A DNA stretch of 64,000 nt from the NCBI RefSeq assembly GCF_003065605.1, contig NZ_CP026952.1:434001-498000 (forward strand). The letters are read 5' to 3'. Origin of the DNA: Aeromicrobium chenweiae (GTDB lineage: Bacteria; Actinomycetota; Actinomycetes; Propionibacteriales; Nocardioidaceae). Numbering within the stretch: the stretch's first letter is position 1; each line of letters opens with the position of its first letter. Under the pieces are notes generated by a model. That model was not told the DNA's origin. It made no database searches and saw only the letters and a program-made list of their open reading frames with translations. A program made the translations under genes and the position numbers. Positions 33,622-54,228 of the stretch are shown here, piece by piece.

Positions 33622-33694
33622 GCGTCAAGCCTAGGCAGGCTGGGCAGGTCCAGGACGACGAGCATCTGGCGCCTGGGGATCCGGCGCCGGTCGG

Positions 33695-33767
33695 TGGGCC
33701 CCGTGGGACTCGAACCCACAACCCGCGGATTAAAAGTCCGCTGCTCTGCCAATTGAGCTAGAGGCCC
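33695..33767 (-). tRNA. tRNA-Lys (anticodon TTT)
   Basis: Minus-strand cloverleaf of 73 nt. The acceptor GGGCCTC pairs with GGGGCCC, the D arm is TAGCTCAATTGGCAGAGCA, the anticodon stem-loop is GCGGA-CTTTTAA-TCCGC with anticodon TTT, and the T arm is GTGGGTTCGAGTCCCAC. CCA is not encoded. Its 5' end and upstream leader are part of a 23-bp repeat that also occurs near 56.7 kb, so the gene marks the left edge of an island and the island now supplies its promoter region. Confidence 0.95.
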
Positions 33768-33782
33768 GGGACATGGGGACAA
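33760..33782. repeat. Left copy of 23-bp direct repeat (putative attL core)
   Basis: A 23-bp sequence starting AGAGGCCC and ending GGGGACAA is identical to 56699-56721. It covers the first eight bases of tRNA-Lys and 15 bp of its leader. Flanking bases differ on both sides (T/C before, T/C after), so the match is exactly 23 bp. This is the pattern of a site-specific integration core. Confidence 0.8.
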
Positions 33783-33932
33783 TAATCCGGAGAACCTTCC
33801 GGAGAATGCCACTAGCCCGAGACCGAGTATCGCAGAGGTCTGGTCCGGCGTGGCCGGTGCCTAGGGAGAACCCTCGGGACAACATGCGTGTAGTTCAGTA
33901 GGCCTGCCCGTGCCGAACCGGGTGACCTCGCG

Positions 33933-35120
33933 TCAGGCTTCAGCGGACTGAGAAGGCGCCTCCATCCCGGTCTCCGTGGGGGCGGCTGCGAGATGCTCCG
34001 AAAGCATGGATCTGACCAAGACAAGGCCGATGCTGGAGTCGATTGTCTTACCGATCTGCCTCACGTTTCCCGGCCCATCAACCAGTTGAACCAACAGGCG
34101 GCTGAGCAGGTCGCTGCGGTCGACGTGCTCTTGCTCTTCGGCGGACAACTTCGCGACCTTGCTGCTGACCGTCCGTTCGACAACCTGGACTATCTCGTCC
34201 TGGGTCAAGGGCGTGTATTCGATGAGGGCGTCGAAGCGCGACGCCAAGGCGTCGCCTAGCGCCTCCCGGATCTCGACGTCCGTCTTGTAGTTGGACGTGC
34301 AAATGAAAAGGGCCGGACCGACGTCGACCGAGTAGTTCTTGTCGACGAAACGACCGCTGTCGAACAGCTCGTAGAAGGCGCTGTGGAACACCGGGTTCGC
34401 CTTGTCGAACTCGTCGATCAGGATCACGCCGGACTCACGGTCCAGCAGGTCACGTGCCAAGGAAGCTTCGGAGTGCTCGCCCCCGAACAGGTACGACGCG
34501 AACTTGTCGCTGTGGAACATCGAGAACTGTTTGCGCAGGAGGTCGCCGCCAAGTAGGCCGTTGATGAAATGCGCGGTCTCCGTCTTACCGACTCCTGACG
34601 GTCCGTACAGCATGACGACTACTGGCTTGGTTCGTCCTGGACGGATGAGTGGGTACATCGTTGCGAGCAGCAGTTCCCTCACGGTCCGCTGTCCCACGAG
34701 GTGATCCGCGAACCCGTCGCGGAACTGTCGAAGCGTCTCAGGGGTGATCGTCGGGTATGTGTGGCGCTCGACCCGAGTGGACGGAAAAGCGCGAATTAGC
34801 TGCTCGTGGACCCGGGAGGGTGGGTTGTTGAGGAGCAAGTGCTTCGGGTGAAGTTCCTGGACGAGGTTGGCGAAGTTGGTGATCGCGTGCTCCTGGATGC
34901 TGGCGAAATCGGCTGACTCTGCCACCACCCGGTTGGGACGCCGCAACTTGCTGATCGGCTCCTCGCCGTCGTGGCCAGCAACAACGACCCGAAAGAGCTT
35001 GCGGAGTGCGTCTCGCTCGTTGATCAGTGTCATAAAGTTCTTGGTCTTCGAGGCTCCCACCTGGTCATGAAACCAAGACGGTGGTCCGTAGTAGATGACG
35101 ATCTTGGGCTCAGACGCCAT
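33933..35120 (-). CDS. AAA+ ATPase, ClpX/ClpB-like
   Basis: A 395-residue ATPase. An N-terminal region (about 1-135, starting MASEPKIVIYYGPP) has no recognisable domain. The AAA+ module follows: Walker A LYGPSGVGKTE (Lys about 179), Walker B GVILIDEFDKANP (Asp-Glu about 236-237), sensor FICTSNYK and an arginine-rich DALASRFDALIEY (probable arginine finger). The ATG at 35120 has AGGAG 6 nt upstream and lies inside the end of the DUF6414 gene (11-bp overlap), so the two are coupled. It probably remodels or signals with the partner; a defence role is suggested by location only. Confidence 0.85.
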   Translation of the reverse strand: MASEPKIVIYYGPPSWFHDQVGASKTKNFMTLINERDALRKLFRVVVAGHDGEEPISKLRRPNRVVAESADFASIQEHAITNFANLVQELHPKHLLLNNPPSRVHEQLIRAFPSTRVERHTYPTITPETLRQFRDGFADHLVGQRTVRELLLATMYPLIRPGRTKPVVVMLYGPSGVGKTETAHFINGLLGGDLLRKQFSMFHSDKFASYLFGGEHSEASLARDLLDRESGVILIDEFDKANPVFHSAFYELFDSGRFVDKNYSVDVGPALFICTSNYKTDVEIREALGDALASRFDALIEYTPLTQDEIVQVVERTVSSKVAKLSAEEQEHVDRSDLLSRLLVQLVDGPGNVRQIGKTIDSSIGLVLVRSMLSEHLAAAPTETGMEAPSQSAEA

Positions 35121-35907
35121 GTTCGACTCCTGCAAGGACGACGTCGTAGACGTCGAGCAGCACTTCGGAGTCCGAACCGGCGACTGGGCCGTCCACTACG
35201 TCCAGGGCAGTCGGAGACTTGCTCGTGTGCTGAGGTGCGTCGCCCATCTCCGCATCGACACTCAGGCCAGCTTCTGTGCTGCTGCCGACCAGGATGGCGT
35301 GGTAGACGAGCCGCATGCGTCCTAGGTCAGTCAAGCCGTAGTTGTTCCGAAATGCTCCGATGTTGAACCTCAGAACGCATTTCTCCGAAGGGTCGACGCT
35401 GCTCTCAGCCAACAGCTCGTAGTAGCCCTTGGCGCGCTCGAGAGCTTCGTCCATCCGGGCGAGGTCGAACCCAGTGTCCTCGGTTCTCGCGATGACCATG
35501 TACGGGGTGTACATCTTCATGAACGCCATCGAGTCCGCGGGCGCGGTCACCTTGTAATCACGCAAGGGGCGCACGCATTCGTCTCCGGCGACCTCCTCGA
35601 GGTAGTCGGTAAGAATGGTGTTCGACAGAGTCTTGCTGAGGATGCTCTGCCCGACCCGCGACACGTCCAGTCCTCCACTCGCCTCGGCTGAAGCGCCCAG
35701 AAAGGGAAGCCAGCTGAACTTCGCGACAAGCTTGGACTCGACTTGGCCATGCATGTCAGCAGTCCGGTTCTTGATGTACTCAGCTTTGGACTCCGCGGCG
35801 CCGCCGGCGGAGATGTCCAAGTAGTCGGACGCGGACTGCTCATCGAAGTACACGATCTTGAGCATCGACCTGCTCGCAGAACCTACGGGCGGGTTTTCAG
35901 TGGTCAT
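35110..35907 (-). CDS. DUF6414-like protein
   Basis: A 265-residue protein opening, after a short variable tail, with MLKIVYFDEQSASDYLDI, the conserved start I associate with DUF6414, followed by SAGGAAESKAEYI and a long alpha/beta region (YMVIARTEDTGFDLARMDEA). There is no signal peptide or membrane segment. The function is not known. It overlaps the AAA+ gene, so the pair probably acts as one unit. The ATG is preceded by TGAGGA and the gene is divergent from the 409-residue protein gene across about 150 bp, where both promoters must lie. Confidence 0.65.
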   Translation of the reverse strand: MTTENPPVGSASRSMLKIVYFDEQSASDYLDISAGGAAESKAEYIKNRTADMHGQVESKLVAKFSWLPFLGASAEASGGLDVSRVGQSILSKTLSNTILTDYLEEVAGDECVRPLRDYKVTAPADSMAFMKMYTPYMVIARTEDTGFDLARMDEALERAKGYYELLAESSVDPSEKCVLRFNIGAFRNNYGLTDLGRMRLVYHAILVGSSTEAGLSVDAEMGDAPQHTSKSPTALDVVDGPVAGSDSEVLLDVYDVVLAGVEHGV

Positions 35908-36058
35908 GAGCAGGTCCTCACCTAGGGGATCCGACCGGAGCTGGGGATCAGGAAGAGCATGTCTCACGCCACCGACACGACGCGAACGCGGTGTGGGTGA
36001 GGGCCTCTGGTCAGTCCCGACCAATACCGTGGGACTTCCACTGCCGGAAGGAACGCGC

Positions 36059-37288
36059 ATGTACCCGCCGCCCGAGGGCACCCTGGAGACTCCAGATCAG
36101 ATCCGTGAACTGGACGATACCTTCCTCACCTCGGACCCGTTTGGCTACTTCGTGGCACGCATCGGGATGCTGCATGCCTGGGCTAGGTTCTCTGGCGGAG
36201 GCCCCGGAGACGAAAGCGAGAACGACGCTACTGAGCCGCAACCCGCACAGGGGGACCACCTCGGCGGCGCCCCTGACGTCGCCGAAGACATCGGGCGACC
36301 TGATCTCTTCCCGATCATGCGGGCGGTCATGCGCAACGAGGGCGGCGTTGCCCAGCCCGAGGCAATGACCGTGTCTGCTCAAGTGGCGGTTGATGCCTTT
36401 GCCCTCCGACACCATGTCGCGGAAGCATTGGTCAGATTGCTCGTCGGGGCTGCCGAACGGTCGCTCATCTCGGGCATGCCCTCAACGAGCCTGTGGTCGC
36501 GTCTCACCGACGACAAGAACGTCCAGATCAGCCAACTTCTTGACGCGGTCAGGAAGGCCGCGGATGACCTCGGTGAGTTTGGTTTCGCTCGGCTGATCGT
36601 GCCGCCGTCCGTAACCATCGAGAACGCGGCGGACCAGTCCTACTTGGGAGGCTTCGCTGATCTGTGTGCGGAGTGGGTCGAGCGCGCTGTCGAGCTCCTC
36701 GGCCCGTCCGAGCTGGACATCAACACTGCTCACAACAAGGTCAAGCATGGGCTCGCAGTCCGAGGCAGAGCCGACCTCAAAGTGCCCTTCACAACTGTCG
36801 GGCCAGATGCCGACGGTAACGTCCCTGTCTCCGCCTTTGACGGCGACACGTCCTTCAACATCTTTGAGAGGCCAGTTCTGGAGTTCATGTCTCGGGCCAA
36901 GACGCCTGGAACTCGTCGGGGCGGCGGCCTGGAGGTGACTCAGCTGCAGCTGGACTACCGGCACCTGCTTGCGGAGTCGATGATGATGTCGTACGTTCAC
37001 GGCGCGCTTTTCCATGTCGCCGCCTGCCAGCACTTCAAGGGTCGTGAGGTGCCCCGTGGGCTTTCTGTGGCGCCGCACCCCGGCCTGGCCGGCCAGGACG
37101 CTGCGCGACCGAACCTGGCTGGCCACCAGGTGGGTCTGAAGTTTCCCATCACGAAGCCGACCGGGGGCGGTGAAGCGAGACCTGCGGGTTTCTGGCACAG
37201 GGACGGGGCGTCCATTGAGTTCAGCCACGTTGGCAAACGGGTCTCAGCGCAGGTCATCGACCCTGTGGAACCGGGGGACGGGCGGTAG
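36059..37288 (+). CDS. Uncharacterised island protein, 409 residues
   Basis: No family recognised. An acidic linker occurs at about 55-85 (SENDATEPQPAQGD). A mostly helical region from about 100 to 250 includes FALRHHVAEALVRLLVGAAE. INTAHNKVKHGLAVRG at about 225-245 is a motif of the N-x-K-H type seen in several HEPN-like and other helical proteins, and LLAESMMMSYVHGALFHVAACQHF is near the end. The start is the ATG with GGAAGGA 6 nt upstream. It is divergent from the DUF6414/AAA+ pair and could be its third partner, which is inference from position. Confidence 0.6.
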   Translation: MYPPPEGTLETPDQIRELDDTFLTSDPFGYFVARIGMLHAWARFSGGGPGDESENDATEPQPAQGDHLGGAPDVAEDIGRPDLFPIMRAVMRNEGGVAQPEAMTVSAQVAVDAFALRHHVAEALVRLLVGAAERSLISGMPSTSLWSRLTDDKNVQISQLLDAVRKAADDLGEFGFARLIVPPSVTIENAADQSYLGGFADLCAEWVERAVELLGPSELDINTAHNKVKHGLAVRGRADLKVPFTTVGPDADGNVPVSAFDGDTSFNIFERPVLEFMSRAKTPGTRRGGGLEVTQLQLDYRHLLAESMMMSYVHGALFHVAACQHFKGREVPRGLSVAPHPGLAGQDAARPNLAGHQVGLKFPITKPTGGGEARPAGFWHRDGASIEFSHVGKRVSAQVIDPVEPGDGR

Positions 37289-37328
37289 GGGTCGGGAGGC
37301 TGCCAGGCCCGCACCGTCCTCGTACCCG

Positions 37329-38357
37329 CTAGCAACGGTTCAGCGGAACCAATGGCCTAGACGTTCCTCCACGCGTGCGCTGCGGGTTGCGCCGGGTGCG
37401 CGTGAACCGCAGGTAGCTGTCGGCATCGGGTCGTCCACACACTTCGACGGCGGCTGACATTCCCGACGTGAGTTGCGTGTGGACCGCGCGCCACATCGTG
37501 ATGGATGACACCGTGGTGTCCCCGTGCGCCAAGCCGACCGCCGCACGCTGTCGGTCCAGGATGCCGGAGACGCTCGACGAGGCCCTCTTGGAGTTGAACT
37601 CTTCGGTGCGCGGCCGGTAGGTCAGGCGTTCGTGAGGCGCGTCGTCAGTCAGGTCCATGTATTCGGCGATCACCCGGATGTTGAACTCGTCCAGCTCCAA
37701 GATGCGGCTGGTGACTCCGTGGTCCATCCCGGGAGCTTCGATCAGGCCGTTGCCTGGGGTGAGGTCGAGGCTCTGACGCAGGATCTTGGGGGTCTCGCTG
37801 GGGTAGAGGCCGGCGTCGCACTGTGCGTAGACGCAGGCTGCGCGGCGGCCATCCGCACCGCCCACCTGACTCAAGGTGAGCGCCCACATCCGAAGCAGGA
37901 GCGTCTCGTCGTCGGTGTAGGAGCGCGTGAGCCCGGCTGTGCGCTGGCGAAGGGAAGGGATCTCGCTCGCGAGTTGCTCAGCTTCGGACTTGTTCGCGAG
38001 GGTGCTTCGAGAGGCGGCCAAAACCGCAGCAAGGAGCAGGTTGCGGTACAGGTGAATCTTCGCTGCCTGGTCGGGTGTGTTGAACTGCGACACCCTCGAC
38101 TTATCGACTGCGGCGGCCGCGGCGATGAGCGCGGCGGCGTTGTCGATGACCTTGCGGGTCGTGACGTAGCCGATAGCGCCTGCGCGGTCTCGCAAGTGGT
38201 CGGCTGCCGCGACGATGTCGGCTCGAGATCTCGCCGGGATGAGGCTGAGCTCCTGATCGAGCTCGAGCATCATCTCGACCGCGTCGTCGAAGTCGTGTCC
38301 TCGCAGGATGGCGCCGGTGATGTTGATGGCGTAGTTGGTCTCGGGTGACGTGCTCAT
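37329..38357 (-). CDS. Degenerate tyrosine-recombinase-like protein A
   Basis: A 342-residue protein. A helical N-terminal part (about 1-150) precedes a region aligning by eye with the catalytic fold of the partner protein B at 40512-41453. YAQCDAGLYPSETPKIL stands where recombinases have G-x-R-x-S-E, and SVSGILDRQRAAVGL followed by TVSSITMWRAVHTQLTSG stands where they have H-x-x-R. The R, H and R of the active site are not conserved; a Tyr occurs in ADSYLRF near the expected nucleophile site. The ATG has AAGGAG 7 nt upstream. It lies 150 bp after a DDE-transposase-like gene, across a strong hairpin. Probably a DNA-binding partner rather than an enzyme. Confidence 0.5.
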   Translation of the reverse strand: MSTSPETNYAINITGAILRGHDFDDAVEMMLELDQELSLIPARSRADIVAAADHLRDRAGAIGYVTTRKVIDNAAALIAAAAAVDKSRVSQFNTPDQAAKIHLYRNLLLAAVLAASRSTLANKSEAEQLASEIPSLRQRTAGLTRSYTDDETLLLRMWALTLSQVGGADGRRAACVYAQCDAGLYPSETPKILRQSLDLTPGNGLIEAPGMDHGVTSRILELDEFNIRVIAEYMDLTDDAPHERLTYRPRTEEFNSKRASSSVSGILDRQRAAVGLAHGDTTVSSITMWRAVHTQLTSGMSAAVEVCGRPDADSYLRFTRTRRNPQRTRGGTSRPLVPLNRC

Positions 38358-38456
38358 GGTGGTTCTCCTTGGATGGATGTTGCTTACAAGGAGGACTGTG
38401 CGAACCGGACTGGGTTAGACAATCGAGCACACGGACAATGACTTAGCCCTGGAACG

Positions 38457-38490
38457 ACAGATGACCCCGCCGTGGGGCGGGGTCATCTGT
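38457..38490 (-). terminator. Perfect 15-bp-stem hairpin between module A genes
   Basis: ACAGATGACCCCGCC pairs completely with GGCGGGGTCATCTGT around a GTGG loop. It lies 17 bp past the stop of the DDE-like gene and about 100 bp before the recombinase-like gene A. It may terminate or attenuate transcription between the two genes. No T-run follows, so a structured regulatory or recombination element is also possible. Confidence 0.55.
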
Positions 38491-38506
38491 GATGGGACGT
38501 ACGGGT

Positions 38507-40294
38507 TCAGCTGGCGTACCAGCGTGCCCACGAGATGGCGTTGCGCACGCAGGCCGCCGAGAGGTAGTCGAACAGCTGGGAGTCCAGACTGAGCGTCGCC
38601 GCGCGCGACCCCTTGGTCCGGAGCCTGGACTTGAACCAAGCGTTCCAGCTCTCGGCGTGGTTGCGGTAGTTGGCGATGTCGGCGTACGCCTGCCCGTCCG
38701 CGCGACTGATCGGGCGGAGATCGTTCAGCACAGGGTCGGCGGTGGAGTGGTTCGTCGAATCGGGGGTGTGGAGGGTCGGGTCCGGGTCCCAGCTGGTGGC
38801 GATGGTGAAGTCGCCGTTCTCGCACGGGATCTCCCACAACTCATCGGTGCCGAACCTAGGCTCAGGACTGCCGTTCGTGTGGGCTCGTCGCGTTGAGCTG
38901 ATGCTGCGGGCTGTGGCGGTCTTGACGAGATACGTCCCATCGCTCTCCACAGAGTGCAAGGCGCCGTCGTCCGTGAAGAGATGGTGCTGGCAGACCCCCT
39001 CTGTGCCGTCGTGCTCCACCGACTTGAAGTACCTGAAGTGAGACCGGACGATCTCGTAGCCCTCATGGTGCTCCTGGTTTCGTGAGCCCGTGACGGCACC
39101 CGCGGAGGTTGACCGGTACACCGAGATGCCGAGAGGAAGGGCGGCACCTGAACGGTGAAGGTCCACGGCCGCTGCCTTGTTCAGGACGTTGTTGAATGTG
39201 CGGATCGCGGACTCGCTGAGCTTCGTGTTTTTGTCCGCGTTGAGCTCGGCCGAGAGCACCCTGTAGCGGTTGTCCGACTTCAACTGGTCGATGAGGTCGT
39301 CGGCCTGGTGGCGCACGGACGTCGCCGGGCTGGTGTTCTTGTCCTCCGCGCCTGCCTTGCGCCTCTTGGCGCTGTGCGCGGACGACTTGTTGAATACGCG
39401 GGCACCGTGTCGGCCTGCGATGTGGTCCAGAGGCCAACCGGTCATGACGCCGTCGTAGAGCAAGTTCTCTACGCCGCCGCCGGCACGGGCCGCGATGGAG
39501 CCGAATAGCTCTAACGCGGACCAAAGCTCGGCGCGAGGCGCGTAGCCGGTGGCGAGGATCACCCAGCCATGCTCCGTCGGGGTGAGCATCGACGTCATGT
39601 TCAGTCCGCTCAAGTCCAGTTTGTCGTCCTCCGTGAGGTCACTGAATGCGGTCGAGATGCGCGCGTTCTTGGTCTTGTTCACGGCGCGACTTCCGATGAC
39701 CACGGTATCGCGCGTCACCGGGTCCACCATCTTCTTGACCCCGCTGAAGGGTGCGACCACGCACCCGTCTCCGATGACGGTGTTCGACATCGACGGGTTG
39801 GTCCAGTCGACGACTTCCCGAGGAACCAGGTTGCCCATGACCTGGGCCTGATCCATCGACGTGCGCTGGAAGCGCTCCTGCAGGAGCGCGTGCCAGTCCA
39901 CGTTCTGGATGCGGGCACCGTTCTTCTTGCGCTGGCACGTGACGGCCTCGACGAATTGGTCGACCTGGTCCCGCGTTGGTGGCGCTTCAGGAAAGGGCAT
40001 CCCTTCGGTTTCGGGCCGGGCCGCCCACACCGCGCCCAATCGCTGCCAGGTCAGTGGGTCCTTGAGCCTCTTGCTGGTCTTGACGCGCGAGGTCGTGACC
40101 CGCGTGGCTATTGCCGCGAACAGGAGCAGAGCGGTCGGGTAGCGAGACTTGGCGCCAGCGGGGCTCAGCCTGTTCAGGTGCTTGATGCGATCGCATTCGC
40201 CGGCCAGGTCGTACAGGCCATACCAGTCCAACAGTGCCATCATCTCGTCGATGTCCGTCATCTCGGACGTCTCGATGTAGTAGTCGTCGCTCAT
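38507..40294 (-). CDS. DDE-transposase-like protein A
   Basis: A 595-residue protein. An RNase-H-like fold is suggested by three acidic residues in matching contexts with protein B: VIGDGCVV (Asp176), LLYDGVMTG (Asp281) and YRNHAESWN (Glu548), the last followed by a helix-rich tail (LFDYLSAACVRNAISWAR) as in IS transposases. The region between the second Asp and the Glu is enlarged. The N-terminal 150 residues are helical with SRYPTALLLFAAIATRV, like transposase DNA-binding regions. The ATG has GAGGAGG 6 nt upstream. It is divergent from the B module. Assigned as DDE-like from residues and context only. Confidence 0.55.
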   Translation of the reverse strand: MSDDYYIETSEMTDIDEMMALLDWYGLYDLAGECDRIKHLNRLSPAGAKSRYPTALLLFAAIATRVTTSRVKTSKRLKDPLTWQRLGAVWAARPETEGMPFPEAPPTRDQVDQFVEAVTCQRKKNGARIQNVDWHALLQERFQRTSMDQAQVMGNLVPREVVDWTNPSMSNTVIGDGCVVAPFSGVKKMVDPVTRDTVVIGSRAVNKTKNARISTAFSDLTEDDKLDLSGLNMTSMLTPTEHGWVILATGYAPRAELWSALELFGSIAARAGGGVENLLYDGVMTGWPLDHIAGRHGARVFNKSSAHSAKRRKAGAEDKNTSPATSVRHQADDLIDQLKSDNRYRVLSAELNADKNTKLSESAIRTFNNVLNKAAAVDLHRSGAALPLGISVYRSTSAGAVTGSRNQEHHEGYEIVRSHFRYFKSVEHDGTEGVCQHHLFTDDGALHSVESDGTYLVKTATARSISSTRRAHTNGSPEPRFGTDELWEIPCENGDFTIATSWDPDPTLHTPDSTNHSTADPVLNDLRPISRADGQAYADIANYRNHAESWNAWFKSRLRTKGSRAATLSLDSQLFDYLSAACVRNAISWARWYAS

Positions 40295-40308
40295 CCCGTT
40301 CCTCCTCT

Positions 40309-40381
40309 TAGGTGTGCGGCCGGGTGGCAGCATGAGGGGGACTGTCGGAAGGGGGCACGCAAAAGCAGTCGCGCACACCTA
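40309..40381. repeat. 10-bp inverted repeat between the divergent recombinase modules
   Basis: TAGGTGTGCG at 40309-40318 and CGCACACCTA at 40372-40381 lie in the 217-bp gap between module A and module B. They flank a place where divergent promoters are expected. They may be a regulator site shared by both modules, or recognition ends for the recombinases. Confidence 0.5.
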
Positions 40382-40511
40382 CGGGCAAAGACTTGCTGAC
40401 AGGTAGAGGTGCGTCTTCGTTCCCGCCTGCGATTCGTGGCGTTCCCGACCCGCTGCTCTCTGGCAAAGTTGCGCTCGATCGGTCTAGGTTCATGTGGCAC
40501 GGAGGTCCAAC

Positions 40512-41453
40512 ATGGCCAAGAACGAACAGCAATCCCGACCGGCGGAGAAGGCGACCGCAGCATCTTTCCTGCTGAGCGAACTCAAGAACTCAGTCCCGGC
40601 TGTGTGGAAAGACTCCGGCGACTACTCAAACCAGACCTTGCTCCGGTCAAGCGAGACCTGGGCCCGGTTCATCACCCGCCAGCAAAAGCTCGGCGCCACC
40701 ACACCGGCGGACTTCACTCTCCAGCACTGTCACGCCTTCGTCTGGGCGTTCGGTGCCAGCGGACAACCCGCTGAGGTCGCGACGATGCACGCCCGCCGCA
40801 CCGCGCTTCGGATGGGTTTCCGGGCGCTACGGGACCTCGGGCATGACGTCGGCGACCCGACGCTCGACCTCGCCCTTCCGCCACGCACTGGCACCGCCGC
40901 CAGGCCGCTGACGGACGCTGAGGTCGGGCTCTGCCGGACCAGTGCTCGCCTAGGAGAAGCTGGGGCGGCGTCTCTGCAACGTGCGGTCGCGTGGGCTATC
41001 GGCGAGACGACAGCGGTCTCCAGCGAAATCTCCGCCGTGCGCGTGCGAGACGTCGACGACCATGAGGACCCGAGGTGGATCCGCCTGCCGGGGACCCGCC
41101 GCCACGACGCCCGCCTGGGCGAGCTCACCGACTGGGGCTCGACCATCGTCAAGCGCCACCTCCAGGTCCTTGACGAACGCAGCGCACCCCCGTCGACACC
41201 GCTCACCTACAAGGGCGATGCCGAGCCCGGACAGGCCAAGGCCCAGGCCGCCGTCTGCAACGCCCTCGGTGCGGTGCTCAAGTTCGCCGGCCTCGCCGCT
41301 GAACCTGATATCCGCCCGGCCTCACTACGGAATTGGGCCGGCCGTGCTCTCCTCGACGGCGGGATGCCTATCGAGCACGTCGCCCGCCGCATGGGCAGCC
41401 GCAGCCTCGACGCCGCCGCCGAAGACATCGGCCTGCATTGGCGGGCCACATGA
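40512..41453 (+). CDS. Degenerate tyrosine-recombinase-like protein B
   Basis: A 313-residue protein with the layout of a phage integrase: a core-binding helical domain at about 15-120 (SSETWARFITRQQKLGATTPADFT) and a catalytic fold at about 130-310 (RPLTDAEVGLCRTSARLGEAG). The active site is broken. ETTAVSSEISAVRVRD lacks the first Arg, only SLRNWAGRALLDGG keeps an Arg, MGSRSLD has lost the second-motif His, and AAEDIGLHW has no Tyr. It therefore cannot cut DNA as a tyrosine recombinase. The ATG has GGAGG 6 nt upstream and the gene overlaps the DDE-like gene by ATGA, so the two are made together. Confidence 0.65.
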   Translation: MAKNEQQSRPAEKATAASFLLSELKNSVPAVWKDSGDYSNQTLLRSSETWARFITRQQKLGATTPADFTLQHCHAFVWAFGASGQPAEVATMHARRTALRMGFRALRDLGHDVGDPTLDLALPPRTGTAARPLTDAEVGLCRTSARLGEAGAASLQRAVAWAIGETTAVSSEISAVRVRDVDDHEDPRWIRLPGTRRHDARLGELTDWGSTIVKRHLQVLDERSAPPSTPLTYKGDAEPGQAKAQAAVCNALGAVLKFAGLAAEPDIRPASLRNWAGRALLDGGMPIEHVARRMGSRSLDAAAEDIGLHWRAT

Positions 41454-42934
41454 GCAACCGCGGCAGCGACATCAACACCATCGCGCGCGTCCGCGCCATC
41501 TGCGGGTCCCGCAGCCTCCTCACGCTCGGGGCCCGACTCGCGTGGAGAAGCGACGTCGGTCGTCCGTCGGCTCAGCCTGCCTACGTCCTTCTCGCCTTCG
41601 GTGCCATGGCGAGGCTCGCGCGGTCTGGTGTCAGGGTCGAGCGGGACCTCGCGGAACCCGAAATCTGGGCGTTTGCCCGCAGGATGCTGGCTGACACCGC
41701 CAAAGCGTCCGGTCTTGACGTACCGGCACCAGCGGCGGCCCCACCTAGGTGGGACCACTGGCGATGGGCCAGAGACCACCACCTCGCCACCGACGACGGG
41801 CTTGGTCAGCTGGCGCGCGAGTTCCCTGCCGCCGCCGCCGAGCTCGCGCTCCAGATCGGTCTCTGTCGTCCGGACGCGCCCGGCTCATTCACCCACCCGG
41901 ACACCGAACAGTGCATCTACGGCGACGGCACGCTGGTTCGCCCCCTCTACCAGCCGCCGGTCACGCACACCGTGACGCAGGACGACGGAACCACGAGGAT
42001 CATGTACCCGCACCCACGCACCGGCGAGCTCTGTGCCGAGCCTGTCCAGCGGTTCGACCCAGACCTCCAACCACACCACGGCCGCCTCGGCCCGGTGCTG
42101 ACCCACGGCTACGTCGCATGGCACGCCCGCGGCCCGGCCCCGTACCAACGCGTCGTGCTTGCCGCAGCCCACATCCCCGCGCCTGGTCAGGAAGCAGCCA
42201 CCTCAGTCCGTCTCGCCGGCGACGTCTACCGCCACCTCGGCAAAGGCATTAAGGCCGCGATCTACGACGGCGCCATGCACGGTGTCCACATCGAGGAAAT
42301 CATGCGCCGCTACGGGTGGCTCGTCCTGGCCAAGACGCCCGAAGCCATCAACGAGGGCGTCAGCCTGATCGTCAACAAGAGCGGCAAACGCGCCCGCAGC
42401 TACCCGCTCGGCACCGTCACACACCAGGCGGCCGCCGGCGTGTGCGCGCACCAGCTCGCAGCAATCGACGGGGCCGTGGTCGAGCTCGGCCTCGACGACA
42501 CCGGCGACCCTGTCGTCACAGCGAACCTCGAACGCGGACCGATCAAACGCTCACGCCGCAGCGGCGGCCAGTACTACTTCAACGTCGCCTACAAGGTCCC
42601 GTGCCGCACTGAGCCCTTCACCACCTGGCTCTCGCCGCACCCGGGCAAAAGCACCGACCTCACCCGCCCGCACAACCTGCGCATCATCAACCAGAGCGAC
42701 CCGGACTTCGCCCGCCTCTACGGCCTGCGCAACGACTCGGAGAATTTCCACTCCAACCTCAAACGCACCATGCTCGTCAACCGTCAGATGAGCCTCGGTT
42801 GGCGCCGCGGCCTTCTGGACATCTACTGCTTCGCCGTGCTCAACAACGCCCTCACCGAACAGAGGGCCCGCGAAGCCGCCGCCGCCCCCACCCGAGCGCG
42901 CGGGCTGCGCGCCGTGTCGGCCAGCACCCGATGA
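41450..42934 (+). CDS. DDE-transposase-like protein B
   Basis: A 494-residue protein. Its acidic triad matches protein A: CIYGDGTLV (Asp159), AIYDGAMHG (Asp273) and LRNDSENFHSNLK (Glu431), with 114 residues between the first two, and a C-terminal helix (RGLLDIYCFAVLNNALTEQR). Between Asp159 and Glu431 are segments typical of a transposase core (RRYGWLVLAKTPE and LPLG-type strands). It is coupled to the degenerate recombinase B by ATGA. A perfect palindrome TGACATGTCA sits on its stop codon. A mobile-element enzyme is likely, but no flanking inverted repeats were found. Confidence 0.6.
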   Translation: MSNRGSDINTIARVRAICGSRSLLTLGARLAWRSDVGRPSAQPAYVLLAFGAMARLARSGVRVERDLAEPEIWAFARRMLADTAKASGLDVPAPAAAPPRWDHWRWARDHHLATDDGLGQLAREFPAAAAELALQIGLCRPDAPGSFTHPDTEQCIYGDGTLVRPLYQPPVTHTVTQDDGTTRIMYPHPRTGELCAEPVQRFDPDLQPHHGRLGPVLTHGYVAWHARGPAPYQRVVLAAAHIPAPGQEAATSVRLAGDVYRHLGKGIKAAIYDGAMHGVHIEEIMRRYGWLVLAKTPEAINEGVSLIVNKSGKRARSYPLGTVTHQAAAGVCAHQLAAIDGAVVELGLDDTGDPVVTANLERGPIKRSRRSGGQYYFNVAYKVPCRTEPFTTWLSPHPGKSTDLTRPHNLRIINQSDPDFARLYGLRNDSENFHSNLKRTMLVNRQMSLGWRRGLLDIYCFAVLNNALTEQRAREAAAAPTRARGLRAVSASTR

Positions 42935-42980
42935 CATGTCAGGCGGCGCTGCAATGCTGCGTCGTAGGAAGGAGGCAACC

Positions 42981-43658
42981 ATGACCGACGACGCGCATCC
43001 GGAGAGCCCGAACGCGGCTCAGCTCGAATGGCAGCAGAGCATCAACAGTCTGGTCGAACGGGTAGGGAGCTTGTGGTCGGCCGATCGCGTGATCCAAGCG
43101 CTGGGACTAGACGACCACGCCGCGCTGGAGCGAGCCGTGGTCGATGGAGCGGTTCTCGGCCTCAAGACGTCAGATGGAGCGCTTGTCTTTCCGGTGTGGC
43201 AGTTCCACAAGACCGATGACGGTGTGGCTGTTCTCCCTGGCCTTCTTCCAGTCATATCTGCACTTCATGATCACATCTCCTGGAGCCTCGCCACATGGAT
43301 ACGTATGCCGTCGCCGGAAATCGGTGGGCGGACAGTACTGGAAGTCGCCACGCACAGCCCGGACAGCGAGGCGCTCCGCGGTCTAGTCCAACAGTTCAAC
43401 CGGGAGATGTTCGCAGGCTCGTACCCCCGGCACTCACATGTCCAAGCAGTGGTTGCAGGGCGGGCGTCCTACGACGAACTCGATCCCGTCAAACAGGCGC
43501 TCGTGCGCGCGGAATGGAGCCGGCGCATCGAGGTCGCCCGCACCCAGCTCGACCTTGAAGCCACCTTCAAGACCGATGGTCGGTCGTGGTCTGAAATCGA
43601 CGAGGACGGTCAGGTCGTCCAGCGCAGACCCAGTGCTGACGACGACAGCCATGAATGA
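42981..43658 (+). CDS. MbcA/ParS/Xre-type antitoxin-like protein, orphan
   Basis: A 225-residue protein. Residues about 20-115 follow the pattern of the MbcA/ParS antitoxin domain: WSADRVIQALGLDDHAALERAV (DNA-binding part), VLGLKTSDGALVFPVWQF and VLPGLLPVISALHDHISWSLATWIRMPSPEIGGRT. The C-terminal 100 residues are an acidic/helical extension (VKQALVRAEWSRRIEVART). Family members neutralise RES-domain toxins, but no RES gene lies beside it, only a 535-bp gap downstream. The ATG has AAGGAGG 5 nt upstream. It might regulate the recombinase modules or be a relic of a toxin-antitoxin pair. Confidence 0.6.
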   Translation: MTDDAHPESPNAAQLEWQQSINSLVERVGSLWSADRVIQALGLDDHAALERAVVDGAVLGLKTSDGALVFPVWQFHKTDDGVAVLPGLLPVISALHDHISWSLATWIRMPSPEIGGRTVLEVATHSPDSEALRGLVQQFNREMFAGSYPRHSHVQAVVAGRASYDELDPVKQALVRAEWSRRIEVARTQLDLEATFKTDGRSWSEIDEDGQVVQRRPSADDDSHE

Positions 43659-44193
43659 CCGGGTACGGGGCAGGCTGACACCACGCTGACTCCGCAGTAT
43701 TTCGCACGAGAGTGCCGTAGCGGCTGAGTAGGTTTTCGACCGAAGTATCGCAAGGTATCCATGTAGGTCCTCACGGTTGACGCCAATAAGGACGGGACGA
43801 TCGGGGCCAAATGGTTGTCGGCGACGGTGACGGTGACGGCCTCCGTCGGCGCGCGGTGATGGTCACCTCCTTTCATGCACGCCGTGTCGCTGAGGGCCTT
43901 GCCCCTTGACCCTTGCTCGTGAGGCAGCTCGCCGCAGGAGTTGCGCCGGCCGCGGTTCTCACCTCCTTTGGTGCGGCGGGCGCTGTCCTGATGGTCGTCC
44001 GACCGGGTACGAGCTTTCGTCTTTCAGTTCTCAAGCTTCGAGCCATCTCACTGACGATCTGAAGTGGCAATCCGTGCTGGCCATGAGGACTGTCAGGAGC
44101 AGGGGACGACTGGCAATCGATCACATACCTGGGCTGGTGGACGTTTCGCCGACGAGCCCCGCGGGGCGGCGCGCGCTTGGTTCAGGTGAGGCT
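43659..44193. other. Gene-poor gap with two full anti-Shine-Dalgarno matches
   Basis: I see no convincing gene in these 535 bp. On the minus strand two AAAGGAGGTGA sequences (43863-43873 and 43959-43969, 96 bp apart) match the 16S rRNA 3' end fully. Yet no usual start codon lies at the right distance after either, and the short frames that cross them read poorly. A minus frame from an ATG at 43876 could encode about 65-88 residues, but without family-like features. Confidence 0.35.
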
Positions 44194-44406
44194 CTAGGCG
44201 TCCTTGTTGCGGCGACGCACCTTCTCAGACACTCGGTCGCGTGTCTTGCTTGCGGCGTTGGCTCCTGCCCCTTTGGCGCCTCGTCCGGCGTCGAGGGCGA
44301 GGTTCGTGGCTGTCTTGCGGGCCTGGGTTGCCTTCCGTGCGGCCTCTTGGCGCGCGTCGCTGAAGCTGGGCCGGCGCTCCGATCGCGCGGCGGGGGGACG
44401 GTCCAA
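44194..44406 (-). CDS. Small basic helical protein, about 70 residues
   Basis: Ala-, Lys- and Arg-rich protein (SFSDARQEAARKATQARKTA ... KTRDRVSEKVRRRNKDA) with long amphipathic helices, resembling a nucleic-acid or coiled-coil binding tail. No family is recognised. The start is probably the TTG at 44406; no ATG or GTG is available in frame. It follows the 439-residue gene on the same strand by about 70 bp and might be expressed with it. Confidence 0.4.
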   Translation of the reverse strand: MDRPPAARSERRPSFSDARQEAARKATQARKTATNLALDAGRGAKGAGANAASKTRDRVSEKVRRRNKDA

Positions 44407-44476
44407 GACGGTGCTTTGACCCGCGCCCAGGACAAGGCATCATGCGCCTGACTGGGCCGGCACAGGGCTGTGTGGG

Positions 44477-45796
44477 TCAGTCCTCGGACGGGTCCAGCAC
44501 CAGGTGAGTCAGGAGGGCCTCAGCCGAGACCAAGTGCGTTTGCACGAGCACCAGCGGGAGAGGGCTGGAGTGCTTGCCGGCCTGCAGTTCTTCGACCAAC
44601 TTCGCCGTTGACGTCACCATCGACTCGACCAGCGACGAAGCCATCTTCACGTCGCCGGGGCGCGATCGAAGGATGTAGGCCACACGGCCGCGGCGAGTCG
44701 GGGCGGCCTTCCCGCCGCGCAGGTAGGTGGCGTTCTTGCCGAGTTCCCCACGCTCGGCTGCGGCAAGAACCTCCGCGTCTGGCGCGGCGGCACGTAACGT
44801 TCGATCGATTGCCTCAACGACTGCGTTCGCAGCCATTTGCGAGGCGGCAGGACCGCCTGTGACGACCTGATTCCATGCCGCGTCCAAGAAGTCCGGCACA
44901 TGCGGATCGAGGCGGCGCAACAGTTCGCGCACGCCCTCGCGGACGTCTTGGGGCCCACTGACCCAGGGGTCGACTACGTCCTCGCTGAGCAGGTCTACTG
45001 CCTCCTCGTCAAGCCCGCCTGGCTGCACCAGCAGGTCAGCAACCACGACCCCGGCCGCTCCACGACTTGCGAGCGCAACCCGGGACAGGTCGCTGGCAGA
45101 CGGCTCTATAGGTAGATCCAGCAGCGCCTTGTTCAACGCGCTCGAGGTGCGGACGCTCCCGGCGGGACGCCGCGCCAGGACGTTTTGTGCGGCGAAGCTA
45201 GCAAGTAGTGTCGACGTTGCAGTGTTGACCCTGACCAGGTCTGACAGGACTCCCACGCGCCCGTCGGGCACTACAAGAGTCCCGCGAAGCGCCTGCGCAG
45301 TGGACCCAGCGAGCAACGCGCTCTTCCAGGTCGCACCGCCGTCGCTGGCGACCAACCCCATGACACCTGCAGTCGCCGCGAACTGGCGCGTCTGGAGCTT
45401 CCGCACGTTCACCAAACCCGCGAACCCCCCAGCGTCACCAACCCTGAAACCGGCGCCTCGTGCCGTCACGCCTAGACGCGATGCCACGGACTCGGACAGG
45501 ACAGTGGCTCCGGCGCCCGGCCACAACCTTGTGCTCGCATTCCCCTGCGCGGTCGTGACCAACGCCGACAACGAACCCACCGGTTTCCCAGCCGACAACA
45601 GGCGCGAAGTGGCGGATAGCTGGGACGACGGCCCGTTCCACCTCTGCAGGTTGCCTAGCACTGTGTGTGTGCGGTTCACCGCTGTCAACCACGGCGGAGT
45701 CCGCGTCCGTGCGACCATGCCAAGGACACCCAGGCCGCGCGCACCGTCCGAAGGCTTGTCAGTCACTCGGACAAGTCTGGCATGTCGAGCCGACAC
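44477..45796 (-). CDS. Possible pPIWI-associating nuclease-like protein
   Basis: A 439-residue island protein. The N-terminal 260 residues are low-complexity and Ala/Val-rich, with no recognised fold. The C-terminal 170 residues match, by recollection of the pattern, the domain called predicted pPIWI-associating nuclease: REGVRELLRRLDPHVPDFLD, AASQMAANAVVEAIDRTLRAAAPDAEVL, APTRRGRVAYILR, and a late helix VQTHLVSAEALLTHLVL. That domain is typical of defence genes. The start is uncertain (ATG 45796, GTG 45766 or ATG 45718) and no strong ribosome binding site decides. No Argonaute-like partner is present, so this is tentative. Confidence 0.45.
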   Translation of the reverse strand: MSARHARLVRVTDKPSDGARGLGVLGMVARTRTPPWLTAVNRTHTVLGNLQRWNGPSSQLSATSRLLSAGKPVGSLSALVTTAQGNASTRLWPGAGATVLSESVASRLGVTARGAGFRVGDAGGFAGLVNVRKLQTRQFAATAGVMGLVASDGGATWKSALLAGSTAQALRGTLVVPDGRVGVLSDLVRVNTATSTLLASFAAQNVLARRPAGSVRTSSALNKALLDLPIEPSASDLSRVALASRGAAGVVVADLLVQPGGLDEEAVDLLSEDVVDPWVSGPQDVREGVRELLRRLDPHVPDFLDAAWNQVVTGGPAASQMAANAVVEAIDRTLRAAAPDAEVLAAAERGELGKNATYLRGGKAAPTRRGRVAYILRSRPGDVKMASSLVESMVTSTAKLVEELQAGKHSSPLPLVLVQTHLVSAEALLTHLVLDPSED

Positions 45797-46040
45797 ATCC
45801 AGGTTCCGAAGCCTTCGCTCACCTCAAGCCGGGTGGGTCCCGGGCAGAGCGTCACCGCGAGACCCGACGATGTAGTGCCAGAGCGCAGGCCGGTAGGAGC
45901 CGGACCCTAGACCCTGCTAGAGCTACCCATGCGGGGCCCTCGAACGCCAGTGCCGCCTTTGACGGGTGCGCAGCTACAACTGCCGGACGGGAACGGGAGG
46001 GCGTCGTGCCACGTCCGGGCGCCGCGCTACAAGTAGATGC

Positions 46041-46499
46041 TCAGCAGTTGGCCGAGTACTCGTCGAGGGCGTTGGCCTTCTCGACGGACGTGATGTCATC
46101 GCGCCTGGCGAAGCCGAGCAGCCCGCCGCAGTCTGCGTCGGTGTAGACCACCGCCTCGTCCTCGCCGCCGTCCGGTTTGCTTGAGGTCGGTGGCGGGATG
46201 ATGAGGGACGCGACTGCGGCAGTCACGAGTAGGGCACCGGCCACGTAGCCGAGAGGCTTGTCGAACCTAGCTCGGAAGTTCTCTGATCCGCCGGCGAGCC
46301 AGACGAAGGCCGCTACGACGACGACCATGGACGTGGCCACGAAGTAGCCCCAGGACGGCATCCACCAGCAGGTCAGGAAGAACGTGACGACGAAGGTGAC
46401 GCCGCCGATCATGGCGATGCCGGCCACGATCCAGAACGCGCTCTCTAGGAACACCACGACGGGGTCCCGCTCCTCTGGATCCACCTTCTCTTGACTCAT
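46041..46499 (-). CDS. Membrane protein with three predicted helices
   Basis: A 152-residue protein with hydrophobic segments at about 15-43 (FLESAFWIVAGIAMIGGVTFVVTFF), 50-68 (GYFVATSMVVVVAAFVWLA) and 82-101 (LGYVAGALLVTAAVASLII). A soluble C-terminal tail has two cysteines (TDADCGGLLGF ... YSANC) that could form a disulphide outside the cell. No family is recognised. It is divergent from the PIN-GNAT-ASCH gene, the gap holding both promoters. Confidence 0.6.
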   Translation of the reverse strand: MSQEKVDPEERDPVVVFLESAFWIVAGIAMIGGVTFVVTFFLTCWWMPSWGYFVATSMVVVVAAFVWLAGGSENFRARFDKPLGYVAGALLVTAAVASLIIPPPTSSKPDGGEDEAVVYTDADCGGLLGFARRDDITSVEKANALDEYSANC

Positions 46500-46682
46500 G
46501 ACTTGAGTAGGGGGCTGGCTGTGGCACCCACAGCGGTTTCCCAGTCCTGAGCCCGGCGAACCAATCTACTCATCGACGGGACTGCCCCCTGTTCTGAATT
46601 ACCGAGTAGTTAGCACGGATTCTCGAGGCTTTTCCCCCCGCCTACCGGGTAAAATCGCCGCTAAGCAGAATGGAGACGGCCA

Positions 46683-48170
46683 GTGGCAGCACCGAGTGGC
46701 GCAAAGCCGCGTCTCCTTCTGGACACGAACGTCGTCATCGCCCACGAGAACGATGGCCCGACCGAACAGTCGCACGCTGACGCAGCGGCCGAACTCGTGC
46801 GCCTAGCCAACGGCATGGGCTTCCCGCTCCTGCTCAGCAACGGGACTCGCCAGGACTTCTTGAACGCGCCCACTGACATGCGCGAGCGGCGTCTCAAGAC
46901 TCTCGACAAGTACTACCGGACCCTCGGGCCAGTCAACGAGAGTCCGAACGTTCGCGATCAATTCCCCCAGCAGCTCGGCCAGAACGATGCGGCGGACGTC
47001 GAGGTTCTGTCGACGTTCGACACCGGTGTGGCCACGGTTCTGGTGACCGAGGACGCCACCATGAAGAGGCGCGCTGAGCGCGCCGGGCTCACCCGTATCC
47101 TCACCATTCAGAACGCTGTCGACTGGCTTGAAGAACTCGGGGCGCCGGACCTCTTCAACGCGATCGCGGCGAAGGTGGTCGAGGCTTACCGAATCTCCCG
47201 CCACGCGAGTATCTTCGACAGCCTTCGCGACGACTACGACGGGTTCGATAACTGGTGGACCGAGAAGGTCGTCCGTCAGGACCGGCACGCCATCATCCTG
47301 GGCGATGCGGCTGACCCCGACGGCATCGCGGTTCTCAAGGCCGAGAGCCAACCGTTCGATCTCGGCGACTCGGTCCTGAAGGTCTGCACCTTCAAGGTCG
47401 TCGAGCAGGACGGCAGCGCTGGCGCCGGTCGTCGAGGCGAGTTCCTCTTGAGGGCGGTCGTCGACTACGCCCGCGAGACCAACCACCCCGTCCTCTACAT
47501 GACCGTCCACCCCCATCACGAAAAGCTACTTGCCTGGTTGGAGAAGTTCGGATTCACCCACCACGACGACCAAGACAACGGCGAGCTGGTCATGGTGAAG
47601 CGTCTCGAACCCCGTGCCGGTGCCGAACCGATACACCCTCTGGAGCACGCCGTCACCTTCGGCCCGGTTTCACTGCGCGTGCTCGACGCGCACCTCGTCC
47701 CTATCAGGTATCACCTCCACGACCGTCTGTTGCCCGATAGCAGTCCCCAGACGTCACTCTTTCCCAATGAGCCTTGTGGGAACGCGATCCGGAAGGCCTA
47801 CCTCTGTCGGTCACCGTCTCGTAAGCTCAAGCCTGGCGACACGCTCGCGTTCCTGCGCACCAAGCCGACCGAAGCGGCTCGCATCACCGCCATCGGCGTC
47901 GTCGAGCAGACATTCGTAAGCGTTGACCCAGCGGAGGTTGCTGCGCGCGTCAGGGGCCGCACCGTTTACTCCTACGTGGAGATCGCGCAAATGTGTGCGC
48001 AGGGAGAGGTGCTCGTCGTTCTCTTTCGGCTCGACCGACGCGTCGACCCGCCGTGGAGCGCGGGAACGCTAAATCATGCCGGGGTGATGTCACGATCTCC
48101 TCAGAGCATCGCCCAGATCAAGCCAGAGGGAGTGAGATGGCTGCGCACCGAGTTGGACGCGTCGCCCTGA
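46683..48170 (+). CDS. PIN-GNAT-ASCH fusion protein
   Basis: A 495-residue multidomain protein. The N-terminal PIN-type nuclease domain starts RLLLDTNVVIAHEND (metal-binding Asp14) with later acidic positions in NDAADVEVL and VTEDATMK. The middle, about 170-310, is a GNAT acetyltransferase-like fold (GEFLLRAVVDYARE, LLAWLEKFGFTHH). The C-terminal part, about 330-495, is a PUA-fold ASCH-like domain (CRSPSRKLKPGDTLAFLR). GTG with GGAG 7 nt upstream is the start. It overlaps the next ASCH gene by 34 bp. A toxin or RNA-targeting defence role is plausible; nothing proves it. Confidence 0.7.
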   Translation: MAAPSGAKPRLLLDTNVVIAHENDGPTEQSHADAAAELVRLANGMGFPLLLSNGTRQDFLNAPTDMRERRLKTLDKYYRTLGPVNESPNVRDQFPQQLGQNDAADVEVLSTFDTGVATVLVTEDATMKRRAERAGLTRILTIQNAVDWLEELGAPDLFNAIAAKVVEAYRISRHASIFDSLRDDYDGFDNWWTEKVVRQDRHAIILGDAADPDGIAVLKAESQPFDLGDSVLKVCTFKVVEQDGSAGAGRRGEFLLRAVVDYARETNHPVLYMTVHPHHEKLLAWLEKFGFTHHDDQDNGELVMVKRLEPRAGAEPIHPLEHAVTFGPVSLRVLDAHLVPIRYHLHDRLLPDSSPQTSLFPNEPCGNAIRKAYLCRSPSRKLKPGDTLAFLRTKPTEAARITAIGVVEQTFVSVDPAEVAARVRGRTVYSYVEIAQMCAQGEVLVVLFRLDRRVDPPWSAGTLNHAGVMSRSPQSIAQIKPEGVRWLRTELDASP

Positions 48171-48589
48171 TGTCGATCCACCCGCAGTATGCCGCGGGCA
48201 TCCTGGACGGCACGAAGCGCGTGGAGTTCCGCAAGCGACCCATCGCCGTAGACGTCACCCATGTTGTCGTCTACGCCACCGCCCCCGTCAGCGCCGTGGT
48301 GGGGGCATTCACCGTGGTCGGACAGCACACCCTCCCTCCCCGGATGCTCTGGCAGCAGTTCAAGGAGGTCGCGGGCATCGGACGCGACGACTTCATGGCC
48401 TACTACTCGGGTCGTCGCGCTGGCACAGGTATCGCTGTGGGCGGGGTGTTTCACGCGGAGGCACCCATAGGGTTGTGGGAAGACCTCGGCATTGCCCGCC
48501 CTCCCCAGAGTTTCCAATACCTCGCCTCCGACATCGCGACACAGATCTTGGAAGCCCTCAGCCCGGGGTCCGTGCGTGCGTACGCCTGA
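48137..48589 (+). CDS. ASCH domain protein
   Basis: A 150-residue protein with the ASCH fold's signature LMSIHPQYAAGILDGTKRVEFRKRP near the N-terminus and VVVYATAPVSAVVGAFTV in the sheet. ASCH proteins bind RNA or modified nucleotides. It is coupled to the PIN-GNAT-ASCH gene by a 34-bp overlap, with GGGAGTGAG upstream of its ATG. The free ASCH protein could be the neutralising or targeting partner of the fusion. Confidence 0.75.
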   Translation: MAAHRVGRVALMSIHPQYAAGILDGTKRVEFRKRPIAVDVTHVVVYATAPVSAVVGAFTVVGQHTLPPRMLWQQFKEVAGIGRDDFMAYYSGRRAGTGIAVGGVFHAEAPIGLWEDLGIARPPQSFQYLASDIATQILEALSPGSVRAYA

Positions 48590-48673
48590 CCGGACCCGGT
48601 AGGAGTACTTGAGGCGACGGGCCCCGGGGTGGGCAGTCGGCCCGATCCGGAACTCAGTGGCGCGAGGCGTCGG

Positions 48674-49645: not shown

Positions 49646-49714
49646 TGATCCTGCACGCCGCCGCTGGGGTCTGGGCGCGCGAAGGGGGTGGTCCTCCTAC
49701 GTTGCGCACAGGAC

Positions 49715-49861: not shown

Positions 49862-50032
49862 CGTCGCCTCCCACCGCTCAGTCGGACAGCTTTGGCGCAC
49901 TGGCCGCCCACTGGCTCCGCCAGCGGCAGGGTCCAAGGACTTCATCGTCAGTCTGGACGCGGGGCGCTGCCTTACTGATCGGTTGGACGCGGGGTTGGGG
50001 AATGTGTTTCCGGTCGCGGGAGCGACCAGCGG

Positions 50033-52127: not shown

Positions 52128-52148
52128 GGGTGCCTCCGGGCATGACAA

Positions 52149-54211: not shown

Positions 54212-54228
54212 CGTTGAACACCACGGAC

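Follow-up and report, generated by a model that had tools for sequence, protein, structure and literature searches.

A family of Tn5-like DDE transposons paired with a catalytically dead tyrosine-recombinase-fold protein, a probable selector of tRNA 5' ends

Why do two transposase-like genes in one bacterial locus each stand beside an integrase-like gene with an incomplete catalytic set? This question is raised by a 64,000-bp stretch of the Aeromicrobium chenweiae chromosome (NZ_CP026952.1, positions 434,001 to 498,000; hereafter the window), part of a 3.72-Mb genome assembled as a single contig. A preliminary description of this DNA had placed four open reading frames (ORFs) here, arranged as two modules, and all four are present at those coordinates: the DDE-transposase-like proteins A (P0001) and B (P0002), and their respective integrase-like partners P0003 and P0004 (Table 1). 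The ATGA coupling of the B module is equally real, P0004 and B overlapping at 41450-41453. None of the four proteins has a match above cut-off in Pfam or NCBIfam. We consider it probable that they belong to a family of Tn5-like DDE transposons whose dead tyrosine-recombinase partner selects the 5' ends of tRNA genes.

Window positions 33768-56698 are a bounded transposon with an 8-bp target duplication. Its ends carry the motif GGGAC...GTCCC with inverted repeats, and the terminal 17-mer GGGACATGGGGACAATA occurs once on each strand of the window and nowhere else in it. In genomes of the same genus, similarity to the window breaks off and then returns around both boundaries. Two of them, G012 and G033 (loci and genomes carry our own L and G numbers), carry an island in the same position whose ends are of the same type and whose duplication agrees, save for one mismatch in G012; about 135 bp of the right end are conserved (90% in G033, 85% in G012). 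In a further genome, G013, the tRNA-Lys gene is directly followed by sequence resembling the displaced right flank of the window, and a 13-nt string, CGAGTATCGCAGA, is common to this displaced flank and the element's left end. The conserved termini which the preliminary description proposed to look for are present, along with target duplications. A scan of the tRNA-side end for sigma-70 promoters found none; that the element supplies a tRNA promoter is a guess. Element-end-like sequences also lie beside tRNA-Lys in two further genomes of the genus, at L115 (G357) and L118 (G026), with no DDE or partner gene detected in the stretch examined; candidate readings are decayed copies or copies mobilised in trans.

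A and B are homologues by a similarity greater than chance would give (BLASTP E=3e-7, single comparison), and hhalign relates A to the B family with 97.5% probability. As first described, they share three acidic sites in the same order, within GDG, YDG and R-N-x-x-E-x-[WF], corresponding in B to D159, D273 and E431 (P0002 numbering). Conservation was counted over 41 near-full-length representatives, obtained from 73 DDE matches after merging identical rows and rows of more than 90% identity. Both aspartates are invariant (41/41 each) and the glutamate is found in 38/41, the three others having a frameshifted, truncated or missing C-terminal region. All four residues of the IS4 signature Y(2)R(3)E(6)K are present in B; among the 41, Y is kept in 33, R in 38, E in 38 and K in only 13, where D often stands instead. 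The model of B, built from a 27-sequence alignment (mean predicted local distance difference test, pLDDT, 86.9; predicted template-modelling score 0.87), places D159 within strand 155-165, D273 just past strand 269-272 and E431 within helix 418-439, with an all-beta insertion (strands 305-394) between D273 and E431. When this model was searched against the PDB, three matches were obtained at E<0.001, all of them Tn5 transposase (4dm0, 3ecp, 1mm8), with a loose superposition on the Tn5 chains (root-mean-square deviation ~15 Å, template-modelling score (TM) 0.33-0.38). The DDE fold foreseen for these proteins is thus borne out for B, with canonical placement of the triad and a Tn5-like fold, and the DDE chemistry of the transposase is well supported.

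The partner of B is predicted to have the two-domain architecture of an integrase, core-binding plus catalytic domain, as had been proposed. Its model (29 sequences, pLDDT 90.1) matches XerA, lambda Int, Cre and others in the PDB with probability 1.0 and TM of ~0.4-0.5, the partner sequence profile matches XerA (E=6e-9), and Phage_int_SAM_1 is matched by 11/29 members of the partner family (E 0.01). The structure match and the PDB sequence-profile match are the independent evidence of identity; the iterated INT profile used in our searches took in some ordinary integrases and its E-values are not independent evidence. Four of the five catalytic positions are replaced in P0004, namely the first Arg (V169), the His of HxxR (A270), the His of the LGH box (S296) and the Tyr (D305/I306), leaving R273 as the sole catalytic residue. 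The claim that this protein has no tyrosine at all needs correction, as it has two, but neither is at the catalytic position.

The loss of catalytic residues extends to the family. We aligned 39 DDE-adjacent representatives plus P0003 (n=40) with seven ordinary integrases found near some of the loci. At the aligned columns, the partners have the first Arg in 0/40, the HxxR His in 0/39 readable sequences and the Tyr in 0/40, and keep the second Arg in 13/39 and the third-box His in 2/39. All seven ordinary integrases have R, H, R and H; their Tyr is in the main column in five, one column off in one and replaced by Cys in one. This alignment to active recombinases upholds the incomplete catalytic set reported initially. 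P0003 is a weak sequence relative of the partner family (hhalign probability 59%, E=9e-5), with a phmmer match to the B-type partner of L009 (5e-7, in a small database), and an interrupted homologue, 43% identical, lies in the G033 element at the same tRNA-Lys. Its assignment as an integrase-like partner, drawn from such sequence comparisons, is weak and the weakest link of the four.

The two kinds of gene go together well beyond the window, as the co-occurrence proposed for survey in the preliminary description implied. Considering DDE genes that cover more than 380 profile positions and have more than 700 bp of upstream sequence, an automatic profile search found an integrase-like gene directly beside 50 of 53 near-full-length DDE genes. 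The three unpaired cases are A of the window, whose partner P0003 is present but falls below the profile, L081, which is cut by a contig edge, and L085, in which the DDE copy is frameshifted and a remnant of the partner is left. A search of 57 other genomes found neither A nor B; a contig scan of 84,980 species gave 42 loci, and the DDE profile matched 17/296 genomes of a class sample and 24/396 of an Actinomycetota sample, both counts including fragments and the window's own genome. Relatives of the B partner lie on plasmids of Streptomyces mirabilis, Mycobacterium kansasii, M. avium and M. intracellulare, each followed by a B relative that it overlaps by a few bases. The plasmid searches gave no match to A or its partner, and a scan of viral contigs found no relative of the family. 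On plasmid pMyong1 (L008, 5717-6264), the integrase-like gene is broken into two ORFs that overlap, next to an intact DDE gene. A small XRE-type regulator (family F3) is encoded upstream of the pair in 15/32 loci compared (for instance L005 7447-7902 and L015 4381-4959).

For 62 loci, some of which hold only DDE fragments (30 further locus ids, comprising re-fetches, short pieces and the near-copy L007, were excluded, among them L051, which also adjoins a tRNA-Arg), a tRNA gene in the same orientation starts 123-300 bp past the DDE gene in 27, and one in the opposite orientation in none (0/62). With 38 tRNA genes in 917,965 bp of these loci, about 0.2 loci would be expected by chance; since the loci share ancestry, the excess is not a tally of independent events. 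The 27 tRNAs are Arg(CCT) in 22 cases, Arg(TCT) in two, Lys(TTT) in two and Gly(CCC) in one. A later set consisted of nine of the 23 other matching genomes in the Actinomycetota sample, chosen by match length. It has a tRNA gene 50-192 bp downstream in the same orientation in 6/9 loci, adding tRNA-Phe(GAA); the three without are one quartet, one A module at a contig end and one fragment.

tRNA genes are a common target of integrases, and an island at such a gene, with a protein of integrase fold, could be taken for an ordinary one moved by a conventional tyrosine integrase, the DDE and partner genes being passengers. Such islands, including actinomycete integrative and conjugative elements (AICEs) and phages, indeed resemble the present elements in tRNA target and integrase fold, but they rely on active recombinases at tRNA 3'-end attachment sites, whereas a DDE mechanism at the 5' end is indicated here. 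The window has an 8-bp duplication derived from the tRNA 5' end, terminal inverted repeats and no repeat of the tRNA 3' end. Furthermore, no integrase match was found in the 16 candidates scanned out of the element's 18 further genes (all but those of 64 and 70 amino acids), and the DDE gene is 123-300 bp from the tRNA in the 27 loci above. On these four grounds, 5'-end duplication, inverted repeats, lack of an integrase match and DDE-tRNA proximity, both the conventional-island and the passenger explanation were rejected, and we give them almost no credence. Ordinary tyrosine-integrase genes lie beyond this same tRNA-Arg(CCT), on its other side, in L014 (9603-11063, with Cys at the Tyr column) and L015 (9756-11417); a single tRNA gene may thus serve elements of different kinds at its two ends.

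Seven insertions are resolved at both ends (window, G033, G012, G319, plasmid pMK12478, G348 and G350), and all have duplications of 8-9 bp, one of them mismatched (G012): 8 bp in the window, 8 or 9 bp in mycobacteria and 9 bp in G319. The G319 element, whose DDE protein groups with those of Streptomyces in the tree, measures 22.7 kb and has a 12-bp inverted repeat and a duplication, CGCCTCCGT, that includes the first 8 nt of tRNA-Arg. In the mycobacterial and Streptomyces relatives, the gene pair lies near one end of the element. The left end of the G319 element was found with a longer flank; no Streptomyces or Nocardioides left end was located inside the fetched loci. Mycobacterial copies that are identical or near-identical over more than 9.4 kb end at exactly one base, 208 bp past the DDE gene, with different flanks beyond it, and ten other, more distant mycobacterial copies have this terminal motif after the DDE gene. 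The near-identical block is present on the M. kansasii plasmid pMK12478 and in five mycobacterial genomes (99.98-100% over aligned pieces, with different right flanks). By both ends it spans ~44 kb on pMK12478 (our own arithmetic), and ~2.5 kb of it are absent from the G350 copy. The left end, which has no inverted long copy of the right end, was defined by comparing copies, and the three mycobacterial copies resolved at both ends (pMK12478, G348, G350) are all flanked by 8-9 bp duplications. From these sequence comparisons, the ~44-kb block appears to have spread recently as one transposon.

Some copies have a more complex arrangement. The cargo of the ~44-kb block (L092 with L099, L038-L041, L046) includes MCE, peroxiredoxin, dehalogenase and alkanesulfonate genes, and a second left-end-like sequence lies inside it (pMK12478 near 140527; L100 1-76), at which similarity starts in a G346 contig, possibly reflecting nested or alternative ends. 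Tandem insertions, in which an element end and duplication are followed by a further end-like sequence, are seen in L020 near 9534 and in the window at 56707. In L042, two single-pair elements adjoin at one tRNA.

According to the mechanism that we propose, the DDE protein would act as a Tn5-like cut-and-paste transposase, binding the ends and joining them to a ~9-bp staggered cut. The dead partner, without chemistry of its own, would retain the DNA-clamping shape of an integrase, recognise the tRNA gene and guide the transposase, always in the same orientation, to the 5' edge of that gene. Since copies exist on plasmids and at non-tRNA sites, a second, less specific insertion route, as in Tn7, may operate as well. 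We infer the selector role because of the DNA-clamping fold, the general preference of integrases for tRNA genes and what TnsF has been shown to do: this inactivated tyrosine recombinase of the Tn7-like Tn6022 selects comM (Faure et al. 2023, PMC10293859). The preliminary description had suggested a target-selection partner; the tRNA-abutting insertions make this likely and stop short of proof. The main rival is an end-binding role in the same transposon: the partner would serve as an architectural accessory or as a regulator, binding and bending the ends, and the tRNA preference would come from the DDE protein. This seems unlikely to us. The partner gene overlaps the DDE gene, as for a subunit of fixed stoichiometry, and many insertions lie away from tRNA genes, both in keeping with an accessory, but DDE transposases of the Tn5/Tn10 type are not known to need such a subunit. 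Moreover, the inactivated recombinase TnsF demonstrably chooses its target (PMC10293859).

Several observations weigh against tRNA selection by a dead partner of a Tn5-like transposase. The B family has no Pfam match (0/27 members at E 0.01), NCBIfam has none to A or B, and the B-family sequence profile finds neither Tn5 nor any credible relative in the PDB. Consequently, the link to Tn5 is one of fold and motif only and, given the loose superposition, the kinship is distant. A Tyr is found two columns past the expected place in 13/40 partners, so that loss of the Tyr, taken by itself, would be less telling than that of R and H. Many copies lie away from tRNAs, including plasmid copies (L001, L005, L006, L008) and L019, L023, L025, L027, L030, L032, L034, L035, L038, L040, L041, L046 and L049, a number of them mycobacterial and Streptomyces ones; tRNA targeting is therefore not obligatory. 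L012, a fragment, has a nearby tRNA in the opposite orientation. In the window itself, the tRNA-Lys end is on the A side and the modules are ~3.6-9.2 kb off, unlike in single-pair relatives. The G012 element has no DDE or partner gene, and that of G033 keeps only the interrupted P0003 homologue. Finally, the partner could bind the ends or regulate instead.

The window differs from single-pair relatives in having two modules. Six loci combine an A-type DDE gene with a B pair: the window, L009, L011, L013, L081 (G290) and L163 (G394). The A partner is seen in the first four, cut off in L081 and below profile detection in L163; in L169, an A module lies where the contig ends. In L013, as in the window, a tRNA-Lys(TTT) lies on the A side, 1.6 kb off. 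The A module runs DDE-then-partner wherever both A genes are seen, and the B module partner-then-DDE in all six loci. In the tree, from which 11 truncated, frameshifted or near-copy rows were left out and to which nine were added, the six B genes of the doubled loci form one clade (support 100/99). The tree requires no more than one origin for the seven A genes (0/500 shuffles as low), though their clade is weak (55/43) and has long branches. The recurrence in six loci and the tree make it probable that the difference in module order is old and inherited. Nesting of two independent elements by chance, without functional unity, might also produce a doubled locus, and the adjoining elements of L042 and the tandem ends in L020 and beside the right end of the window show that such neighbours occur. 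We nevertheless hold it to be improbable, in view of the six loci with their constant module order, the B clade, the single origin of A and the single pair of ends that encloses all four window genes. The proposal that two divergent copies work as one locus thus gains support from the six recurring loci and the B clade. In this sub-lineage, the two DDE-plus-partner modules would be inherited together and may act as a heteromeric transposase. A more specific version, tentative and in our opinion doubtful, is that a Tn5-fold transposase depends strictly on a separate dead integrase to find the tRNA gene and that the two pairs form a heteromeric transposase, each specialised for one end or step, such as tRNA homing by A and plasmid jumping by B.

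Among known systems, the IS4 family (Tn5/IS50, Tn10/IS10) resembles the present one in its fold, Tn5 being the only fold match, in the all-beta insertion between the second D and E, in the R(3)E motif and in its target duplications, which are ~9 bp in IS4 elements. It differs from the family described here, which lacks a Pfam or Tn5 sequence match and has a second protein, elements of 23-44 kb and a preference for tRNA genes. Tn7-like transposons are likewise large, enter a fixed chromosomal target in a constant orientation, have plasmid copies and carry defence cargo, but differ in transposase superfamily, accessory proteins and duplication length (5 bp in Tn7). Defence cargo in Tn7-like transposons is the subject of PMC8649781. 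A eukaryotic DNA transposon superfamily targets multicopy small-RNA genes (PMC3706591); the likeness is in the kind of target, and the hosts are eukaryotic.

The closest precedent is provided by TnsF/Tn6022 and Tsy, in which an inactivated tyrosine-recombinase domain guides a DDE transposon to a fixed target (PMC10293859). The Tn6022 system comprises TnsA, B and C with TniQ, its TnsF has N-terminal zinc fingers and a partial catalytic domain, and the target is inside comM (PMC10293859). Here, by contrast, the DDE fold is Tn5-like, no TnsA, TnsC or TniQ is found by Pfam among 16 of the 18 other gene candidates and the four proteins, and the targets are tRNA 5' ends; the AAA ATPase within the element is DolB. 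The partner is short, with a full Xer-like fold. The precedent thus shares the principle and differs in transposase, accessory proteins and target. The combination of DDE, dead integrase and tRNA was not met among the listed literature matches (preprints and most subscription papers lay outside the search). The preliminary description, which knew of no element with this makeup, did not mention TnsF (PMC10293859) and gave neither the element boundaries nor the tRNA target. To our knowledge, the two-module lineage is the part furthest from known systems.

The locus shows a second case in which a DDE transposon and an inactivated tyrosine recombinase are paired, here with another transposase fold and apparently not within Tn7. 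If the selector role is true, integrases would be a reusable source of target-finding modules. Since members lie beside tRNA-Arg(CCT), Arg(TCT), Gly(CCC), Lys(TTT) and Phe(GAA), the selector question is open to partner swaps. Furthermore, because the family lacks a Pfam match, carries defence cargo and moves 23-44 kb blocks among actinobacteria, it may account for islands that are now unclassified.

Table 1. Positions in the window of the element, its genes and its flanking features
Feature	Position	Strand	Evidence
Complete transposon, 22,931 bp	33768..56698	.	17-bp perfect terminal inverted repeats and 8-bp duplication
Target duplication copy 1, AGAGGCCC, complement of the first 8 nt of tRNA-Lys	33760..33767	.	
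Target duplication copy 2	56699..56706	.	also in G033; one mismatch in G012
Left terminal inverted repeat, GGGACATGGGGACAATA	33768..33784	+	
Right terminal inverted repeat	56682..56698	-	
tRNA-Lys(TTT), target gene; element adjoins its 5' end	33693..33767	-	ARAGORN
Older element-end-like sequence, GGGACATGGGGACAACCCTGCGG, beside right duplication	56707..56729	+	similar layout near tRNA-Lys in G013
A-module DDE transposase-like protein, P0001	38507..40294	-	homology to B, motif alignment, hhalign
A-module integrase-like protein, P0003, weakest assignment of the four	37329..38357	-	hhalign, phmmer, homologue in G033
B-module partner with tyrosine-recombinase fold, catalytically dead, P0004, proposed selector of the target	40512..41453	+	alignment, model, structure match
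B-module DDE transposase, P0002, Tn5-like fold	41450..42934	+	motif alignment, model, PDB match
Cargo, DolB of the Dodola defence system	33933..35135	-	PADLOC DolB E=2e-127
Cargo, DolA / DUF6414, coding start uncertain	35110..36081	-	PADLOC DolA E=5e-73; Pfam DUF6414
Cargo, predicted pPIWI-associating nuclease	44477..45796	-	Pfam pP_pnuc_1 E=3e-8
Cargo, candidate defence protein PDC-M11A	46683..48170	+	PADLOC E=2e-154
Cargo, AbiTii-domain protein	48674..49645	-	Pfam E=1e-16

In addition to the defence genes listed in Table 1, the cargo of the window element includes regulators. The cargo of L013 comprises type I restriction-type M, S and R subunits (Pfam); the type I M and R families recur in L082 and L089, and the M family alone in L009 and L088. 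A further cargo protein of the window (50033-51913) combines an exonuclease domain with BRCT domains and an Lsr2 DNA-binding domain.

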